Positions 36,120-38,000 of a stretch of DNA of 64,000 nucleotides are shown in pieces. Location: positions 638,511 through 702,510 of the forward strand of contig CALSSL010000001.1 in NCBI GenBank assembly GCA_943789005.1, in the 5' to 3' direction. The DNA is from an uncultured SAR86 cluster bacterium (GTDB taxonomy: Bacteria; Pseudomonadota; Gammaproteobacteria; Magnimaribacterales; D2472). The position numbers and the translations under genes are program-made. Positions within the stretch are counted from its first letter, which is position 1, and each line of letters opens with the position of its first letter. The notes beneath the pieces were generated by a model. That model was not told where the DNA came from and ran no database searches. It worked only from the letters and a program-made list of their open reading frames with translations.

Positions 36120-36165
36120 AGAAAAAACTCTTTACAAACATGTAATTACTGGTTAAAAATATACA

Positions 36166-36216
36166 TATCGTGATTTGATCCTATTGCCGCGATGCAAAAA
36201 AAGAAGCTAAAACGGA
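36166..36216 (+). promoter_or_regulatory. SAM-binding riboswitch of the SAM-II/SAM-V pseudoknot type
   Basis: In the 5' leader of the methyltransferase gene, ATCGTG (36167-36172) pairs with CGCGAT (36188-36193), closing a 15-base loop ATTTGATCCTATTGC. A downstream A-rich strand carries GCTAAAACGG (36206-36215). The GATTT and TATTGC loop elements and the GCTAAAA tail match my memory of the SAM-II core, and SAM-V is reported to share that core and to occur in marine bacteria. A UCC in the loop can pair with GGA at 36214-36216 to form the pseudoknot. The gene downstream makes methionine, the SAM precursor, so feedback makes sense. The motif ends about 67 bases before the start codon. Confidence 0.72.
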
Positions 36217-36283
36217 AACAGCTCCCAGGGTTTAACTACGATTAAATTAATTAATAAGATATTCAAGTATTAAGGAGAGGATC

Positions 36284-37415: not shown

Positions 37416-38000
37416 ATGAGATTTCTTGTTATATTTTTTTTAACCTTTCCTGTAATTGGTGAAACCAGTAAAATTTTGTGCGAATTGGAAGGGAATTATT
37501 CTGTAACCTATAAAGATATTAAAAAAACTTATCTATCAGAAGGCATTGAGCTTTTTAAAAACCTAGCAAGACAGACCCAACAGTCATTATTTTTACTCCA
37601 AAGAGCAAAAACTAATTTTGCTGAGGAAGATTGGCAAAAAGATAAAATTTATATTGTTCAGTACTGGGAGGTAGATTCAGATAAAGAGACGTTTAAATCT
37701 TTAACACATACTTTTGAACCATCGCCTGCATGGTTAAACCCTGAAGCTGAATGGTCGGCTTCTAAATCTGATACTGGCATTACAGTTATTCATTCAATGG
37801 AAACAGACGAAACACATCCAATTTTTACAGATTATAAAATTGGTGCCTATAGAATTTCAAATACTTTTAACTGGTATACAGGGAAAGGGCAAATCTCAGG
37901 AGATATTTGGCTTAACAAAAAAGATGGCACCAAGAATAAAAATCCTAAAGTTGAAATAACAGCTTCTGGGAGATGTGAAAGTCAAAAAAAGAAATTTTAA
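37416..38000 (+). CDS. hypothetical exported protein
   Basis: A 194-residue protein I do not recognise. It begins MRFLVIFFLTFPVIG, a short signal peptide probably cleaved after about residue 15. The mature part has two cysteines, one near the start (ILCELEG) and one at the end (GRCESQ), which could form a disulfide in the periplasm. The middle is rich in Trp, Thr and acidic residues with alternating hydrophobic strands (YIVQYWEV; ISNTFNWYTGKGQISGDIW), suggesting a beta-sandwich or lipocalin-like fold. It stands alone and ends one base before a convergent mini-ORF. Confidence 0.65.
   Translation: MRFLVIFFLTFPVIGETSKILCELEGNYSVTYKDIKKTYLSEGIELFKNLARQTQQSLFLLQRAKTNFAEEDWQKDKIYIVQYWEVDSDKETFKSLTHTFEPSPAWLNPEAEWSASKSDTGITVIHSMETDETHPIFTDYKIGAYRISNTFNWYTGKGQISGDIWLNKKDGTKNKNPKVEITASGRCESQKKKF

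Follow-up and report, generated by a model that had tools for sequence, protein, structure and literature searches.

In a SAR86 cluster bacterium, bhmT is very probably repressed by a SAM-II riboswitch at the 5' end of its mRNA. The SAR86 lineage is abundant in the ocean and mostly uncultured, and no paper on SAM riboswitches in this lineage turned up in our literature search. The window, meaning the whole stretch of 64,000 nt that was analysed, comes from an uncultured member of the cluster (Gammaproteobacteria; GCA_943789005.1, contig CALSSL010000001.1, positions 638,511 to 702,510 of the forward strand). The assignment of the element to SAM-II rests on its match to RF00521, at a score under the curated cut-off, on covariation in the P1 stem and on an invariant core. 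Judged from these comparisons, it is a real member of SAM-II whose platform is particular to the lineage and which precedes an unusually wide range of genes; the bhmT case taken alone has a close precedent in Pelagibacter.

From its membership in this family, we infer that the ligand is SAM and that the switch works in the OFF direction. When SAM is plentiful, its binding to the pseudoknot between the P1 loop and GCUAAAACGGA would lower the output of betaine-dependent methionine synthase; when SAM is scarce, bhmT would be on. The identification of the gene as a homocysteine methyltransferase of the betaine type in the original prediction was borne out, as the product is a PF02574 member in a domain search and its closest solved structures are betaine-homocysteine methyltransferases (1.9e-45).

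Table 1. Features of the bhmT leader and gene in the window
Feature	Position	Strand	Basis
Weak sigma-70-like promoter, TTTACA / 18 nt / AAAAAT, just 5' of the aptamer	36131..36160	+	
P1 stem, 5' strand AUCGUG	36167..36172	+	Sequence, RF00521 match, covariation
Aptamer loop AUUUGAUCCUAUUGC: third strand AUUU; P2a 5' strand UCC (36179-36181); P2 5' strand AUUGC	36173..36187	+	
P1 stem, 3' strand CGCGAU	36188..36193	+	Sequence, RF00521 match, covariation
Tail GCUAAAACGG	36206..36215	+	Sequence
Pseudoknot 3' strand GCUAAAACGGA: P2 (GC) and P2a (GGA)	36206..36216	+	RF00521 match, alignment
Possible hairpin GGA..UCC, in most relatives GGAA..UUCC, with the P2a strand as its 5' arm	36214..36225	+	Conserved, little covariation
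Conserved distal block GGGUU, in most relatives GGAUU; potential partner of loop GAUCC 36177-36181	36228..36232	+	
Shine-Dalgarno AAGGAG of bhmT	36272..36277	+	Sequence
bhmT, betaine-homocysteine S-methyltransferase, 352 aa	36284..37342	+	ORF, PF02574, structural relatives

The aptamer and its conservation

The SAM-II core motifs AUUUG, UAUUGC and GCUAAAACGG, together with a six-pair stem, all lie within positions 36167 to 36216 of the window. This stem, the loop and the tail had been described in the original prediction, and all three are present as described (Table 1); roles were assigned to the loop strands by homology to the SAM-II and SAM-V structures (PMC6061858). A sensitive scan of the leader (191 nt, all 4227 Rfam families) matched RF00521 (SAM-II, SAM_alpha) over 36157-36231 with 28.0 bits and an E value of 8.6e-5, and RF01726, the long-loop SAM-II model, at E 0.26. 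RF00521 has a gathering score of 36 bits, which the window element does not reach, so default Rfam annotation misses SAM-II here; a default scan of the window reported two tRNAs and nothing else. As a yardstick, a SAM-II leader of Pelagibacter bhmT, of a kind reported to be verified biochemically with a KD of 1.2 µM (PMC5069961), scores lower with RF00521 than the window element, at 24.3 bits. Genome-wide, the host has three matches with E values of about 2e-4 or lower, the window element among them, and 14 control genomes gave none at E <= 0.01. Taken as a whole, the leader folds no more stably than shuffled sequences do (z = -0.66). In its minimum free energy structure, the start-codon region is paired with P1 and the loop, and we treat this pairing as chance because more distant relatives do not share it.

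A protein similarity search yielded 24 SAR86 bhmT loci, and the motif is present in all of them. Across the order, each of the 28 bhmT loci that are full length and have at least 82% identity has an upstream match to R1, a covariance model that we built from the SAR86 elements and that gives the window element 86 bits. Four further bhmT loci of the order have no model match, of which two are divergent, with stops, and lack the motif, and two are partial C-terminal matches. The divergent bhmT of two SAR86 genomes (L238 and L239) has stop codons in the matched stretch and a leader without the SAM-II element.

Alignments were made of 38 distinct elements and, more widely, of 76. At the outer pair of P1, AU, GC and UA all occur and 18 sequences have double changes; a second P1 pair has a single change from GC to CG, and the P1 covariation score was reached by none of 500 shuffles. 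The core AUUU, AUU and GCUAAA and the GG of the P2a strand are invariant in the 38 sequences. The bases of the SAM pocket (UUU of the third strand, UU of UUGC, and GCUAAA), whose role in holding SAM in SAM-II and SAM-V comes from structures (PMC6061858), are likewise conserved in 38 of 38. In the P2/P2a pseudoknot, 97% of the cells can pair and the columns hardly vary; its strands show little or no variation, and covariation says nothing about this part. Of the covariation that the original prediction had named as a check for both stem and pseudoknot, that in the stem was found, and the nearly invariant pseudoknot neither covaries nor breaks.

Spread and gene sets in SAR86

R1 matched 38 of 107 genomes of the family and 67 of 203 genomes of the order. 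Outside the order, one genome in a class sample of 369 had a match, to an ordinary SAM-II-like sequence. By this distribution of sequence matches, the element is a SAM-II variant specific to SAR86 and almost confined to one order, and its members are missed by the default Rfam thresholds. SAR86 also has more ordinary SAM-II elements before metY- and metB-like genes; in four cases (L102, L111, L116 and L120), an ordinary SAM-II followed by a clear intrinsic terminator precedes a metB-like (cystathionine gamma-synthase) gene.

The genes downstream of the 76 distinct elements are bhmT (29), an AlkB-like monooxygenase (13), TonB-dependent receptors (13, with 11 found by pattern and 2 more by eye), mmuM (5) and metH (5), and the few remaining elements precede genes for a lipoprotein, carbonic anhydrase, thioredoxin-like, OmpW-like and small proteins. 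All 10 loci of this AlkB-like membrane monooxygenase in the order (L201 to L210) have the element directly upstream (for example, element L138:1501-1574 and gene L138:1598-2746), and the solved relatives of this enzyme are alkane 1-monooxygenases. Three genomes of one genus (L118:1395-1583, L119 and L142) have two complete SAM-II-like elements in tandem before the monooxygenase, with starts about 110 nt apart. In a subgroup before TonB-dependent receptors (L182, L183, L185, L186, L188 to L190, L196 and L199), the SAM core is kept, the distal GGAUU block is absent, and the first loop base is mostly C instead of A.

It is conceivable, if rather doubtful, that in the SAR86 variant a short P2a competes with the hairpin and the distal loop pairing (GAUCC:GGAUU), so that SAM controls translation from afar with no terminator involved, and that this single module makes up an order-wide SAM regulon including the receptors and the AlkB-like monooxygenase besides the methionine synthases. 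If this is true, the SAM level is coupled through one RNA element to betaine use, other methionine synthases, outer-membrane receptors and the monooxygenase, and the control by SAM would point directly to the substrate of the latter.

Output stage

The last G of the tail (36215) lies 68 nt 5' of the bhmT AUG (36284), against a predicted distance of about 67, and the aptamer and the ribosome site of bhmT do not overlap. The original prediction took this distance as a hint that the mechanism may differ, on the premise that these classes usually sit over the ribosome site. The premise holds for SAM-V but not for SAM-II, which acts mostly on transcription and for which such overlap is unnecessary (PMC6061858), so a distance of 68 nt is not odd. 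The unusual feature of the window element is the missing terminator. An intrinsic terminator (stem and U-tract) was found neither on the + strand of the window leader nor in any of the 24 SAR86 bhmT leaders, and none of the 24 was SAM-V-like. In contrast, the leaders of SAR11 bhmT, built of SAM-II, terminator and SAM-V, have a terminator in 45 of 56 cases and are SAM-V-like in 47 of 56, which indicates that the SAR86 platform differs from that of SAR11.

Directly after the aptamer, SAR86 elements have a conserved block, GGAA..UUCC(N1-3)GGAUU, and the GG of this block has alternative partners in the loop (P2a) or in UUCC. The hairpin GGAA:UUCC fits 90% of the cells and the distal pairing between loop GAUCC and GGAUU is possible in 96-99%. 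Neither covaries above shuffles, and both therefore remain proposals; isolated compensatory cases are an AGAUU partner for GAUCU (L170) and UGAA/UUCA (L187). In the proposed mechanism, the short P2a helix (UCC:GGA) would compete with the hairpin and the distal pairing, and this competition would govern access to the ribosome site downstream.

Ribosome-site accessibility was modelled with P1 and the pseudoknot imposed (bound state) and with the block intact, shuffled or masked. For the bhmT leaders, the mean was 0.35 with the block intact, 0.46 when it was shuffled and 0.68 when it was masked, and 21 of 29 leaders lay below the shuffled-block value. For the leader in the window itself, the ribosome site is almost equally accessible in the bound and the alternative state (0.52 and 0.56), and the same modelling gave no effect of the block in the monooxygenase leaders. 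A simple anti-Shine-Dalgarno model, supported partly in the bhmT leaders as a group and not at all in the window leader or the monooxygenase leaders, was set aside. With an effect that is present in the bhmT leaders as a group, nil for the monooxygenase and almost nil for the window, the modelling makes translational control through the conserved block our preferred conjecture, to be held tentatively, and it leaves an action on transcription, through Rho or pausing with the block as a polymerase stopping place, as a somewhat unlikely reading. The latter would agree with the prevalence of transcriptional control among SAM-II riboswitches (PMC6061858) and with a block that recurs before widely differing genes, lies at widely varying distances from their start codons and, in leaders of the monooxygenase, does not pair with the ribosome site; against it stands the lack of intrinsic terminators in SAR86 bhmT leaders when they are clear in the metB-like SAM-II of the same order. 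Translational control in SAR86 would resemble that by the Sinorhizobium metA SAM-II (PMC9373788) in acting on a start codon that does not adjoin the aptamer, but there the Shine-Dalgarno sequence is within the pseudoknot and a terminator follows, and neither was found in the SAR86 element.

Ligand, class and the host locus

The SAR86 element shares with SAM-II (RF00521) the P1 stem, the AUUU third strand, the core of UUGC and GCUAAA, strands able to form the P2a pseudoknot and methionine genes downstream. It differs in scoring under the curated cut-off, in a P2a of only 3 pairs, in its gammaproteobacterial host and in being followed by the conserved block with the terminator absent. The extra block specific to the lineage and the wide gene set, with TonB receptors, AlkB-like monooxygenase, carbonic anhydrase and lipoproteins, could point to a SAM-II relative that has changed its ligand, e.g., to another methyl-cycle metabolite. 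We regard this as improbable, as the SAM-contacting bases of SAM-II and SAM-V (roles from PMC6061858) are invariant here, bhmT is the commonest gene, and mmuM, metH and bhmT are all methionine-making.

The original prediction had named SAM-II and SAM-V together, and of the two Rfam models that it proposed to search, RF00521 matched, under its gathering score, and RF01826 (SAM-V) gave no leader match at E <= 10 in the same 191-nt sensitive scan; its SAM-II part stands and its SAM-V part does not. The element does resemble SAM-V in its pseudoknot, near-identical SAM pocket and short P2a (PMC6061858), and the gene is the same, bhmT, as in the Pelagibacter tandem of SAM-II and SAM-V (PMC2704228, PMC5069961), where a shared SAM-II core precedes a gene whose protein is about 75-77% identical. 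Nevertheless, a SAM-V, or the SAM-II half of such a tandem, is very unlikely in the window and is refuted at the sequence level, with no model match at E <= 10. The same search detects SAM-V in SAR11 bhmT leaders, the SAM-V scan pattern occurs in none of the 24 SAR86 leaders, and the ribosome site is outside the aptamer. A SAM-V pseudoknot lies about ten nt or less from the start codon and covers the Shine-Dalgarno sequence (PMC2704228), a location rule that the window element, ending 68 nt upstream, breaks; compared with the Pelagibacter tandem, SAR86 has neither the intrinsic terminator nor SAM-V. Chance resemblance in an A+T-rich leader, for which the sub-threshold Rfam score could be cited, is refuted by the E value of 8.6e-5, the conservation in all fetched SAR86 bhmT loci, the compensatory changes in P1, and the 86 bits at the window of an R1 model almost confined to one order.

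By protein similarity, the neighbors of the window bhmT are proteins of SAR86 cluster genomes at up to 98% identity, followed by those of SAR11 at about 75-77%. The host genome (1.27 Mb, 91% complete) encodes three PF02574 proteins: the bhmT product of the window, that of a second bhmT located on a small contig, and a protein of mmuM size. Neither a metE-type nor a metH-type domain was found in this 91% complete genome, which makes the window bhmT weightier than usual for its genome. The sigma-70-like promoter match upstream of the aptamer is, on its own, at chance level (shuffles give 1.0). The second bhmT (G000:C4:3683-4865, L003) is on a 17-kb contig that is collinear with the window locus, with 92.3% identity over 3 kb, and perhaps represents a co-assembled strain rather than a duplication. 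Directly 3' of the window bhmT, positions 37416-38000 encode a 194-aa protein that has no Pfam match and whose position is kept in several relatives.
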